This document shows, piece after piece, positions 37,880 to 40,621 of a stretch of 64,000 nucleotides of DNA. Within the stretch, counting starts at the first letter, position 1. Every line of letters begins with the position of its first letter. The stretch spans positions 1 through 64,000 of the forward strand of contig CACOKN010000001.1 in the NCBI GenBank assembly GCA_902627805.1, in the 5' to 3' direction. Both the position numbers and the translations under genes were made by a program. This stretch comes from an uncultured Pelagibacteraceae bacterium (lineage in GTDB: Bacteria; Pseudomonadota; Alphaproteobacteria; Pelagibacterales; Pelagibacteraceae). The notes under the pieces were generated by a model. The model saw only the letters and a list, made by a program, of their open reading frames with translations, ran no database searches and was not told where the DNA came from.

Positions 37880-38245
37880 ATGGATTTTCAAACTTCAATA
37901 AAAACTTGTTTTAATAAATATGCAATTTTTTCTGGAAGAGCATCAAGGTCTGAATTTTGGTGGTTCTTTTTGTTTGGATTTCTAGGTGCTATTATTGCCT
38001 GGATTGTTGATGTGATGATATTTGGTTATGCATCTGATGCTTATGGTCCAATGTACTTGATATTTTTGCTTATTACTGCATTGCCTTCGATTGCTGTTGG
38101 AGCAAGACGATTACACGATACTGATAAAACAGGTTGGTGGCAATTACTTTGGATAACTTTTGTTGGTGGTATATTGGTAATCATTTGGCAAGCGACTATG
38201 GGAGAAAAAAAGAAAAATAGATACGGCTCTCCAGTAAAAAAATAG
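37880..38245 (+). CDS. DUF805 family inner-membrane protein
   Basis: 121 residues matching DUF805: KYAIFSGRASRSEFWWFFLF near the N-terminus, three membrane helices, and VGARRLHDTDKTGWWQLLW before the last helix, then a basic tail. DUF805 proteins have no assigned function and often appear in variable gene neighbourhoods. This one lies precisely between the intact 3' end of the PNPOx-like gene and a decayed copy of that same 3' end, so it looks inserted. Confidence 0.88.
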   Translation: MDFQTSIKTCFNKYAIFSGRASRSEFWWFFLFGFLGAIIAWIVDVMIFGYASDAYGPMYLIFLLITALPSIAVGARRLHDTDKTGWWQLLWITFVGGILVIIWQATMGEKKKNRYGSPVKK

Positions 38246-38520: not shown

Positions 38521-38823
38521 ATGTATATCGCAATGAATAGATTTAAAATCGTAAAAGGAAAAGAATCTGAGTTTGAAAATGTTTGGAAAAACAGAGAAAC
38601 TCATTTAGCAGAAGTGCCAGGTTTCAAAAATTTTAATTTAGTTAAAGGTGAAGCTAATGAAGATCACACTCTTTATGCATCTCATAGCATATGGGAGACG
38701 AAAGAAGATTTTTGGAATTGGACAAAATCTGAAGCATTTAGACTCGCTCACAAAGATGCTGGAAAGCATAGAGACTTATATATTGGGCCACCTAATTTTG
38801 AGGGCTTTGAAAAGGTATTGTAA
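38521..38823 (+). CDS. Antibiotic biosynthesis monooxygenase (ABM) domain protein
   Basis: 100 residues from the ATG at 38521, chosen because AGGAG (38511-38515) precedes it by 5 bases; a longer upstream frame is not supported. MYIAMNRFKIVKGKESEFENVWKNRETHL and SIWETKEDFWNWTKSEAF are the dimeric alpha/beta-barrel ABM fold, close to HmoA/IsdG-like proteins in style. Such proteins act as monooxygenases or heme-degrading enzymes; which applies here is not known. The 3' end is followed by hairpin element A. Confidence 0.85.
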   Translation: MYIAMNRFKIVKGKESEFENVWKNRETHLAEVPGFKNFNLVKGEANEDHTLYASHSIWETKEDFWNWTKSEAFRLAHKDAGKHRDLYIGPPNFEGFEKVL

Positions 38824-38843: not shown

Positions 38844-38868
38844 GGGGCACTTGGCAACAGAACGCCCC
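38844..38868 (+). repeat. Hairpin repeat element, copy A
   Basis: Core CAACAGAACGCCCC at 38855-38868 with an upstream G-rich arm: GGGGC (38844-38848) can pair with GCCCC (38864-38868), or GGC (38853-38855) with GCC across the loop AACAGAAC. It lies 20 bases after the ABM stop and 11 bases before the YdjM-like start. Copies B and C share 13 identical core bases in the same orientation. Confidence 0.7.
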
Positions 38869-38879
38869 TTAATTAATAT

Positions 38880-39392
38880 ATGCCATTTACACCGTATCAC
38901 ATAGTTGCTGGAGCATCTGTTAAATCAGTTTTTCCAAAATATTTTAGTTTTTCAACATTTACTTTAACAAATGTTTTAATTGATTGTGAAGTACTCTATT
39001 TCTATTTCACAACTGGTTTTCTTTCACATAAATTTTTTCATACAATCCTTGGAGTTTCAATTGTTGCTATTGTTTGTGCAACGCTGGGAAAACCTATTTG
39101 TGAATTTGGTTTAAGAATTTGGAATAAAACTTTAAAGATGGAAAAGATTAAATGGTTTAAAACTGAAATAAAAATAAATAATTTTTCCTCATGGATTGGT
39201 GCGATTACTGGTGCTTTATCACAGTTAATACTTGATAGTATTATGCATAGAGATATGACACCTTTGTTTCCATTTAGTAATGAAAATATCTTCCTAAGAA
39301 TTGTTTCTGTTGAAAACCTGCATTATATCTGTCTTGGATTATTTGTAATTGCTGTATTTATTTATTTAATTAAGAAAGTTTTTTTTAAATAA
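38880..39392 (+). CDS. YdjM/DUF4184-like inner-membrane protein
   Basis: 170 residues with about four membrane segments. It starts PFTPYHIVAGASVKSVFPKYFS and contains LTNVLIDCEVL, HKFFHTILGV and LDSIMHRDMTPLFPF; the spaced His and Asp residues in or near membrane segments recall the YdjM-type putative metal-dependent membrane hydrolases. No activity is established. It is bracketed by hairpin elements A (upstream) and B (downstream), as if it were a single-gene cassette. Confidence 0.7.
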   Translation: MPFTPYHIVAGASVKSVFPKYFSFSTFTLTNVLIDCEVLYFYFTTGFLSHKFFHTILGVSIVAIVCATLGKPICEFGLRIWNKTLKMEKIKWFKTEIKINNFSSWIGAITGALSQLILDSIMHRDMTPLFPFSNENIFLRIVSVENLHYICLGLFVIAVFIYLIKKVFFK

Positions 39393-39398
39393 TACCAA

Positions 39399-39418
39399 GG
39401 GTGGACAACAGAACGCCC
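39399..39418 (+). repeat. Hairpin repeat element, copy B
   Basis: Core CAACAGAACGCCC at 39406-39418. GGGTG (39399-39403) can pair with CGCCC (39414-39418), with one G-U pair. It follows the YdjM-like stop by 6 bases. Its 3' half also takes part in a competing terminator-like hairpin. Confidence 0.7.
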
Positions 39419-39430
39419 ATTCTGTTTTTT
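39407..39430 (+). terminator. Terminator-like hairpin overlapping element B
   Basis: AACAGAA (39407-39413) pairs perfectly with TTCTGTT (39420-39426) around the loop CGCCCA, followed by TTTT. On the plus strand this would terminate the YdjM-like transcript. It is mutually exclusive with the GGGTG/CGCCC pairing of element B, and is not seen at copies A or C. The stem is short and AT-rich, so strength is uncertain. Confidence 0.5.
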
Positions 39431-39698
39431 AATTTATAATATTAATAAAATTGTATTCATCTAGCGTGTGTAAAATTAAATAAATTATAACTGAAAAAAT
39501 TACACTCCAAAATAAATTCATATAAAATTGAGAATGAACCATTCTAGTCATTCTTTCGTATCTATCATGAATTATGTCAGCACTAATTTTTTTTTTGTTT
39601 TGTAAATCATATGTTTCATTTTGCCATAATATTTGACTCAAAAACAAACAAACACATATTAGTAAAATTATAATTATAAATAAAAGAGCATTGGTCAT
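39429..39698 (-). CDS. Hypothetical two-helix membrane protein
   Basis: 89 residues with helices at about 4-24 and 61-81 and a charged loop between (QNKKKISADIIHDRYERMTRM). I do not recognise a family. AAAGGA lies about 7 bases before the ATG at 39698, a fair Shine-Dalgarno. It follows the Imm-like gene by 11 bases on the same strand, so the two form a pair lying between hairpin elements B and C. Confidence 0.6.
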   Translation of the reverse strand: MTNALLFIIIILLICVCLFLSQILWQNETYDLQNKKKISADIIHDRYERMTRMVHSQFYMNLFWSVIFSVIIYLILHTLDEYNFINIIN

Positions 39699-39709
39699 AT
39701 AAATTCCTT

Positions 39710-39958
39710 TTATTTTTTAATTTTTCTTTTTGATTTTCCTTTTACAAATTCAACGACAGAAACATTTGAAGTTGCATTTGTAAGACTTGCATAGAAAAGT
39801 AAAACAAAAAAACCAATAACAGTCCAACCTAGAAAAAGGTTCAAAAAAAATACAGAAACTTTATTACGAACATCTCTAATCAATGCAATTATAAATGGAA
39901 TAAAATATGCTGCGATGAATAATAATAATATAAATAATTGCCAAAAACCTATACTCAT
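39710..39958 (-). CDS. Superinfection immunity (T4 Imm-like) family membrane protein
   Basis: 82 residues, two membrane helices, matching the Imm superinfection family pattern: AAYFIPFIIALIRDVRN, then FFLNLFLGWTVIGFFVLLFYA. The conserved N-LFLGWT-IGW-type core is clear. T4 Imm, 83 residues, blocks DNA entry of a second phage at the inner membrane. Bacterial homologues are widespread and mostly untested, so a role in phage exclusion is an inference. A basic tail (KGKSKRKIKK) ends the protein. Confidence 0.8.
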   Translation of the reverse strand: MSIGFWQLFILLLFIAAYFIPFIIALIRDVRNKVSVFFLNLFLGWTVIGFFVLLFYASLTNATSNVSVVEFVKGKSKRKIKK

Positions 39959-39980
39959 AAGATTTATTAAACCAAATTTT

Positions 39981-40046
39981 CAACGAAGTTCAAAGGAAAA
40001 TCTTGGACAAAAAGAGTAGATCTCTCAACGAAGTTTTCAACGAAGT
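39981..40046. repeat. Three short direct repeats CAACGAAGT
   Basis: CAACGAAGT occurs at 39981-39989, 40026-40034 and 40038-40046; the last two are in tandem with a 12-base period (TCAACGAAGTTT/TCAACGAAGTGG). They lie in the 150-base gap upstream of the Imm-like gene (minus strand) and before element C. They could be operators for that gene or a decayed repeat; nothing further can be said. Confidence 0.5.
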
Positions 40047-40090
40047 GGTTTTAATAAATAAGCAAATATGCTAATTTCTAATCTAATGCC

Positions 40091-40107
40091 GGGCAACAGA
40101 ACGCCCC
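40091..40107 (+). repeat. Hairpin repeat element, copy C
   Basis: Core CAACAGAACGCCCC at 40094-40107. GGGC (40091-40094) pairs with GCCC (40103-40106) across the loop AACAGAAC. It touches the 3' end of the minus-strand gamma-carbonic-anhydrase-like gene, so here its orientation is opposite to the adjoining gene, unlike copies A and B. Confidence 0.7.
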
Positions 40108-40108
40108 C

Positions 40109-40621
40109 TTAAAAAATTGATTTAGAATATTTTTTCCAATTATCTTGATAGTGCTTTGTGTTTTCAAAAACTGCTTTCTTTTCTTCCTCAGTAACTTCTC
40201 TCACAACTTTACCAGGTGAACCTATTACTAAAGAGTTATCAGGTATCTCTTTGTTTTCAGTAATTAAAGCTTTTGCACCTATGATACAATTTTTTCCAAT
40301 CTTAGCGTTATTAAGAATCACTGCACCAATTCCAATTAAACTATTGTCCCCTATCGTACATCCATGGAGCATAACCATATGACCTATAGTTACATCTTTA
40401 CCAACTTTAATGGGATATCCTGGATCGGTATGCAAAACACATCCATCTTGAACATTTGATCCCTCACCTATATGAATATTTTCAATATCTCCTCTTAGAG
40501 TTGCATTAAACCAAACACTTGTATTTTTTTCTAAAGTAACATCACCTATAACAACCGCATTGGGTGCTACCCAATTTTCGCCAGAGTTTTTTGGTTTTTT
40601 ATCTTTTAAATCGTAAAACAT
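40109..40621 (-). CDS. Gamma-carbonic-anhydrase-like hexapeptide-repeat protein (YrdA/PaaY type)
   Basis: 170 residues forming a left-handed beta-helix, with [39 protein letters not shown] early on. The three zinc-ligand histidines of the gamma-CA fold are at the expected spacing: H64 (CVLH), H81 and H86 (GHMVMLHG). Family members are carbonic anhydrases, thioesterases (PaaY) or untested, so the activity is open. It is divergent from the redoxin gene with a 20-base gap. Confidence 0.88.

Follow-up and report, generated by a model that had tools for sequence, protein, structure and literature searches.

Do the three copies of a short, hairpin-forming repeat that bracket small genes in a SAR11 genome delimit exchangeable gene cassettes and, if so, where does the repeat come from? 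The repeat lies in 64,000 nt of an uncultured Pelagibacteraceae bacterium (GenBank assembly GCA_902627805.1, contig CACOKN010000001.1, positions 1 to 64,000 of the forward strand; this whole stretch is hereafter the window), in which its core, CAACAGAACGCCC, occurs at 38855, 39406 and 40094 (sites A, B and C), each time on the + strand. The original prediction, made from the letters of the window, proposed either a site of recombination that bounds exchangeable units of one or two genes or a family of structured 3′ RNA elements. Comparison with related genomes supports the first proposal: genome AH-321-E06 has the core without the genes that are bracketed in the window. The core is the end of the terminal hairpin of transfer-messenger RNA (tmRNA, gene ssrA), and we consider it probable that each of the three repeats is an attachment (att) site in its integrated form, belonging to integrase-less, att-flanked mini-islands that dock at ssrA and at secondary sites and would be moved in trans by lambda-type integrases.

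The core repeat and the tmRNA end

When up to two mismatches were allowed, the same three core matches were the only ones in the 64 kb, against a chance mean of 0.29, and none of 100 shuffled windows reached three matches, so that the positions, the common orientation and the lack of further copies noted by eye were all borne out. The upstream G-rich arms that had been proposed to pair do form stems. Site A (38844..38868, +; repeat search and fold), the station core GGGGCACTTGGCAACAGAACGCCCC, which aligns with the single core of AH-321-E06, folds into a GGGGC/GCCCC stem of 5 bp that encloses a 3-bp helix and a GCAA loop; site B (39399..39418, +; repeat search and fold), whose core with left arm is GGGTGGAC, forms a 5-bp stem including one G-U pair, plus one isolated pair; and site C (40091..40107, +; repeat search), with left arm GGGC and marking the right end of unit B-C, forms a 4-bp stem. 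Fold z-scores of the three sites are modest (−1.3 to −1.9). The fullest core copies read GGGGCAYYTGGCAACAGAACGCCCC, with the 5-bp stem, inner 3-bp helix and GCAA loop, while B and C keep a single short stem. The host genome (1.14 Mb, 24 contigs) contains six exact copies of CAACAGAACGCCC, three of them outside the window, and no one-mismatch copies; a further copy, of the 11-mer AACAGAACGCC, lies on contig C4. The left arms of the first seven core copies aligned poorly in MAFFT.

One core copy, G000:C1:251645, ends a tmRNA gene: ARAGORN predicted a permuted tmRNA with the tag ANESYAIAA, and RF01849 (alphaproteobacterial two-piece tmRNA) matched this copy over its full length with 221 bits. The core ACAGAACGCCC is therefore the end of the 3′-terminal hairpin in the coding piece of the two-piece SAR11 tmRNA, whose consensus 3′ end is GgcACCuGGCAACAGAAacCuc. 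At site A, RF01849 (alpha_tmRNA) scored 13.6 bits against a cut-off of 50, and the three window copies are therefore tmRNA ends rather than tmRNA genes; the Rfam search of the window gave one tRNA at gathering score, the other matches, alpha_tmRNA among them, being sub-threshold (E ≤ 10, 1.35 kb). A GGG within 14 nt to the left of the core was present at 57 of 68 non-tmRNA sites versus 20 of 816 background windows, at loci that were not chosen for the left arm, the core itself belonging to the site definition. The G-rich arm and the GCCC of the core may represent the inverted half-sites of a recombination core. A search with the last 37 nt of tmRNA turned up two Gordonia matches, both weak, and 96 loci on viral contigs with AACAGAACGCCCCT had left flanks dissimilar to the tmRNA arm, as judged by reading. 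Two MAG (metagenome-assembled genome) contigs titled Rhodobiaceae (L222 and L284) have the same GGCACCTGGCAACAGAACGCCCC stretch, with no second copy within the 8 kb read.

Units, arm repeats and integrases

Where the window carries site A, the YdjM-like gene, site B, a pair of open reading frames (ORFs) and site C, genome AH-321-E06 (L308, CACOGI010000009.1, titled MAG) has one core, between the ABM-side genes and the hexapeptide gene. On the right side, homology between the two sequences begins at the core and continues for 1454 bp at 83%, and on the left side the alignment of core A to the single core spans 67 bp (81%). Left of its core, AH-321-E06 has an additional 77-aa gene and a different gene in the DUF805 position, so the left side of the window station varies too. 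Similar differences were observed elsewhere: the sodB-side station has one core in L050 and two in L047 and L199, with different cassettes; right flanks of four groups were found after tmRNA or after a unit end (at tmRNA in 3/7, 2/6, 3/4 and 1/3 members); the same 342–343-bp unit stands behind tmRNA in G014 but behind another unit in G019; and a 110-aa gene is present in six units with six different right ends. Neither random positions inside genes nor a fixed order in all strains was found, the cores recurring as bounds of gene-sized units in other genomes, and the proposed recombination site thus stands. Reading the window by eye could not have revealed the tmRNA origin of the core, the arm repeats of att type, the secondary stations or the rare integrase.

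The 11-mer AACAGAACGCC was present in 34 of 61 genomes and the 12-mer AACAGAACGCCC in 334 of 399 same-genus genomes, including all 58 near-complete ones, 23 of which have at least two core copies (hand count); the reversed-pattern control gave 11 matches across all 399 genomes (hand count). Core copies cluster in one orientation at gene-sized spacing and many arrays begin at tmRNA, while secondary stations, identified by reading, lie at the rnhA end, behind an M23-peptidase-like gene, in the interval between a 65-aa gene and sodB, and near the ABM-domain gene; core-bounded arrays are also present in another genus of the window's family (G435). The array loci were fetched from among the 12-mer matches listed in same-genus genomes, and among these matches 162 loci yielded 290 cores and 126 distinct core-to-core units of 135–6246 nt including cores. 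At least 119 loci were fetched with a pattern containing GGCACCTGGC and are biased for the left half, for which reason left-half statistics use other loci, and arm statistics use all loci. Units were deduplicated by exact sequence only, leaving a few contigs doubly represented (for example, G412:C1 = JACWDT010000001.1), gene calls follow a longest-ORF scheme, and the names thyX, mrp, rnhA, sodB, M23 peptidase and fumC were assigned by reading sequences.

Of the 170 unit ORFs that reach 80 aa, 148 are oriented against the core and 22 along it, and 25 of 148 protein clusters of unit cargo have more than one member. Among 120 cargo representatives (one of at least 100 aa per cluster, for 120 of the 148 clusters), Pfam matches comprised restriction-modification, trypsin-like, adhesin-like and other families (25 of 66 families), and PADLOC matches were mainly restriction-modification (among the 25 families listed). 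Two very short units, L043:6190-6319 (129 bp) and L195:5784-5910 (126 bp), consist of left and right ends only and resemble empty mini-elements. A 74–80-aa gene with an SCPMMA motif recurs immediately ahead of a core, both at tmRNA (L042) and at the ABM-side station (L048, L051 and L308).

The right ends of units bear paired 9-nt direct repeats, 11–12 bp apart, at set distances from the core. The CAAYGAAG family has repeats near −57 and −69 and a further one at roughly −110 to −122, and those of other families lie near −90 and −101, the motif differing by family. For 104 units of at least 420 nt, repeat-bearing ends numbered 58/104 on the right and 35/104 on the left, versus 2.8 and 4.6 in dinucleotide shuffles, and such a repeat was found in 39 of 692 interior windows; with one member per similarity group, the counts were 9/32 on the right (1.1 in shuffles) and 8/32 on the left (1.6 in shuffles). 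The right-end motif of a unit recurred on the same strand in its own left end in 36 of 58 units, versus 15% of foreign left ends, and on either strand in 38/58 own left ends, 23% of foreign left ends and 90/281 interior 200-nt windows. Nineteen further units, which were too short or lacked a 60-aa gene, lay outside the repeat assessment. Judged from sequence, arm repeats and core together have the layout of phage-type tyrosine-integrase att sites, with arm-type repeats on both sides of the core in part of the units only.

The same arrangement was found with an altered core in a sister family of the order (f2), in which tmRNA ends in gggaggcaccgggcaACAGAAGTCTCCc or close variants. The 30 tmRNA loci returned comprised 25 from f2, 4 from the window's family without the motif and 1 from the same genus. 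Downstream copies of the altered core within ~1.5 kb were present at 6 of the 25 f2 loci, making 7 units in total, and no altered core on the opposite strand and no reversed core was found at the f2 loci. Right-end repeats lie at −65 to −71 in 5/7 units and left-end repeats at +58 to +60 in 2/7; repeats and arms have changed along with the tmRNA end, and the arm distances are the same. The downstream repeats thus match the altered f2 tmRNA end, the docking core following the local tmRNA.

No integrase was detected among 209 ORFs of at least 45 aa in the 126 units with a 15-sequence integrase profile and one HVR2-type recombinase, other recombinase types being covered by the Pfam scan of the 120 representatives only (25 of 66 families seen). 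Integrases at ssrA were found in 2 of 399 genomes. In G185, a 6.2-kb element directly after the tmRNA core encodes a 343-aa tyrosine recombinase and a DUF5906/primase-like protein and has a right end of a common type, and in G266 an integrase 52% identical to that of G185 occupies the same place after the tmRNA core, on a contig that stops before the right end. The left end of the G266 element equals that of an integrase-less unit of G393 (L201) over 49 identical nt from the core, and the tandem TGGCGTCA of the G266 left end recurs in the right end of the G393 unit. Att sites common to an integrase-bearing element, as expected of cis-mobilizable units, are thus found for G266 and the L201 unit and more weakly for G185, in whose comparison TTGGTCGG was found in the ends of four other units. 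The predicted model of the G185 integrase (mean predicted local distance difference test score 88) has three N-terminal strands and a helix, followed by core-binding and catalytic parts, and its best matches among solved structures are the Tn1549 and lambda integrases.

The 18 other genomes with an integrase match have relatives of ~30% identity or fragments, and no core was found beside such relatives in the 11 genomes fetched with wide flanks (L356–L366) or in G211. The 3.5-kb loci of PF00589 hits lacked a core in 29 of 30 cases, the exception being the G185 element, and no core stood beside the HVR2-type recombinase, a candidate cassette integrase, in the loci read. Close relatives of the G185 integrase or primase-like protein were not confirmed in viral contigs by a search that reaches close relatives only; in phage records, the best integrase matches listed were 31–32% identical, and the 608 weak matches included 22 Pelagibacter phage records. 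In G229, a decayed integrase fragment with a stop (L355:4892-5107, reverse) lies between mrp-like and thyX-like genes, ~7 kb from the tmRNA core. Many SAR11 genomes carry a conserved tyrosine recombinase of 317–319 aa (G000:C2:118172-118711; L058–L072 and others) beside glycosyltransferase-like genes, with no adjoining cassette core in the loci read. The integrase elements L322 (tmRNA, G185) and L325 (tRNA-Met region, G211) have related small ORFs in common and carry primase-like or AAA proteins; these elements possibly form a SAR11 satellite family.

Within the window, most of unit A-B is occupied by the gene of a 170-aa YdjM/DUF4184-like membrane protein (38880..39392, +; Pfam, with DUF4184 over the cut-off and YdjM slightly under), confirming that A and B enclose a YdjM-like gene. 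The immunity-like pair expected between B and C was recovered in one member, an 82-aa superinfection-immunity-like protein (39710..39958, −; PF14373, phrog_1039) that matches a phage superinfection-immunity family, and not in the other, an 89-aa ORF (39429..39698, −; ORF list and family search) with no family over cut-off. The arm-like repeat CAACGAAGT is present three times upstream of the site C core on the + strand, at 114 nt (39981..39989), 69 nt (40026..40034) and 57 nt (40038..40046), and the left flank of site C belongs to a family recurring in several other units. The terminus of the 89-aa ORF lies ~10 nt from core B, which leaves no room for a left arm; unit B-C may have lost its left end. 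To the left of the array is the ABM-domain gene (38521..38823, +), also left of the single core in AH-321-E06, and to the right the hexapeptide-repeat protein gene (40109..40621, −), which adjoins that core. Further left, a DUF805 gene (37880-38245) has relatives within cassette units L186 and L315, with a DUF805-like gene also in L379; it is possibly an older cassette, AH-321-E06 having a different gene in its place.

Competing explanations

Core-bounded units of ~0.13–6 kb are arranged head to tail after ssrA and at a few other gene ends, and if sites A, B and C are integrated att sites, ssrA would be the primary docking site. Binding to both arms and core, lambda-type integrases, rarely resident or delivered by satellites or phages, would insert units into ssrA or into an earlier core, or excise them from there, and every insertion would restore the tmRNA end and add a core for the next unit. 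In the window, station A would have acquired unit B-C, with arm repeats beside C, and the gene-only unit A-B. As in cis-mobilizable elements and accretion, the units are flanked by direct att repeats in tandem at one target and, by the profiles used, contain no integrase. A broader proposal, which we advance tentatively and are slightly more inclined to doubt than to accept, is that SAR11 has an integron-like cassette economy built from phage att sites, with a universal tmRNA-end core, family-specific arm barcodes and rarely resident integrases that would each mobilise their own integrase-less single-gene cassettes in trans, the core having changed with the tmRNA in sister lineages.

Several observations weigh against mobile att-flanked units. 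Movement is deduced from comparisons of sequences and was not observed; the spacing of the G-rich left arm varies between sites, so its role as a core half-site is uncertain; related units are non-independent, the 104 right ends forming 32 groups, 12 of which have any repeat; and a unit's own motif is commoner in interior windows than in foreign left ends, if rarer there than in its own left end. Right-end repeats were absent in 49 of 107 assessed units, and in the window no arm repeats were detected in unit A-B or, by reading, at the left end of unit B-C. Most arm families are without a known integrase, and the link of G185 to the cassettes is weak, with a single TTTGGTCG per end and no tandem pair. 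The main rival holds that the arrays are fossils, once inserted by an integrase and now fixed remnants in which gain, loss and shuffling proceed through homologous recombination and deletion at cores and flanks. The rarity of integrases at ssrA, the many units without right-end repeats, the decayed integrase piece in the tmRNA neighbourhood of G229 and the tandem cores themselves, which at 12–25 nt are short yet able to recombine, all agree with it. We nevertheless regard it as unlikely, given identical cargo with different ends and at different stations, an arm-repeat spacing and position kept across many units, and unit-carrying stations that are unrelated in sequence outside the core.

Structured RNA 3′ ends, the second proposal of the original prediction, would mean that copies of the terminal tmRNA hairpin came to lie downstream of other genes, serving there as transcript ends or for stability. 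Some stem is possible in all copies, the loop region is conserved, and A and several other copies follow a gene end; the proposal does hold for one copy, the tmRNA itself, whereas the exact 25-mer hairpin is intact at 28 of 30 tmRNA sites and at only 21 of 68 others. It would also leave the precise presence or absence of units and the arm repeats unexplained, and most unit ORFs (148 of 170) have the opposite orientation to the core, which together make it very improbable. An integron, in which an IntI integrase moves gene cassettes that carry attC sites, would account for one-gene units in same-orientation arrays with hairpin-forming boundaries. However, attC sites carry a GTTRRRY box, which by reading is not found in the core reverse complement GGGCGTTCTGTT, the genes are mostly opposite to the core and have their own upstream region, the profile search of the units, made without an IntI-specific model, found no integrase, and the arm repeats are those of a phage-type site, so an integron is a highly doubtful candidate. 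The small size of the repeat is all that recommends chance or assembly artefact, which we consider barely credible: the counts in the window, the genome and the 399 genomes reject chance, and the pattern recurs in many separate assemblies, many with single-cell-style isolate names and part titled MAG, and again in the sister family with another core.

Related systems and meaning for SAR11

Elements of this general kind are already known, since ssrA-specific islands of Dehalococcoides and additive islands of Methylopumilus have been described. According to the portion of the Dehalococcoides study consulted (PMC3146451), the ssrA islands of that genus are arranged in tandem and 15 of 31 lack an integration module and were suggested to be cis-mobilizable; they use serine recombinases, insert in the T-loop with a 20-bp repeat and are large (~12 kb for vcr), while in SAR11 the integrase is of the tyrosine type, the target is the hairpin in the coding piece of a permuted tmRNA, the units measure 0.13–6 kb, and there are arm repeats and further stations. 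The concept of cis-mobilizable elements and accretion, as far as set out in the same excerpt, fits in several respects, both being att-flanked, integrase-less and tandemly arranged at a single target, whether or not integrase-bearing elements stand there too; the SAR11 units differ in being mostly single genes, in their many arm families, in sites beyond the primary target and in a helper that is rarely resident.

The additive flexible genomic islands of Methylopumilus, again as described in part of the source (PMC10872708), are flanked by repeats of the tRNA-Lys end (last 20 nt) and span 330 bp to 42 kb. They resemble the SAR11 units in occurring in a streamlined aquatic bacterium, with RNA-gene-end repeats and mostly unknown genes, and differ in host and target, arm repeats being unmentioned in that part of the paper. 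In marine bacteria, tycheposons and phage satellites likewise integrate at RNA genes and carry cargo (consulted portions of PMC10872708 and PMC11389934), and the 6.2-kb G185 element, with its integrase and primase-like gene, resembles a satellite; the SAR11 cassettes, unlike these, have none of the recombinase or replication genes. A tycheposon has its own tyrosine recombinase and a tRNA target (same portion of PMC10872708), whereas no recombinase was found in the units, which dock at tmRNA and at the ends of other genes. Integron cassettes and clusters of attC sites lacking integron-integrases (CALINs) share the one-orientation arrays of one-gene units and the integrase from elsewhere (consulted portion of PMC11389934), but in SAR11 a phage-type core with arms takes the place of attC, no IntI was found by the profiles used and the genes are mostly opposite to the site. 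A 2007 SAR11 study, in its consulted portion, reported no attC sites at its hypervariable regions (PMC2217521), and the word tmRNA is missing from the main text of two SAR11 papers (PMC2217521 and PMC7318151). A literature search at the level of titles and abstracts returned no description of tmRNA cassettes in SAR11, and within the literature searched, the tyrosine-integrase, arm-coded and mostly single-gene version in SAR11 appears to be new.

How single genes are gained and lost in the genome-streamlined SAR11 is poorly understood. The core and arms can be searched for in any metagenome, which makes the question testable. If the proposed reading is true, site-specific cassettes with cargo including restriction-modification would be a concrete route of gene exchange in very abundant marine bacteria, and SAR11, abundant in the ocean and with very small genomes, could swap single genes at the end of tmRNA and at a few other spots.
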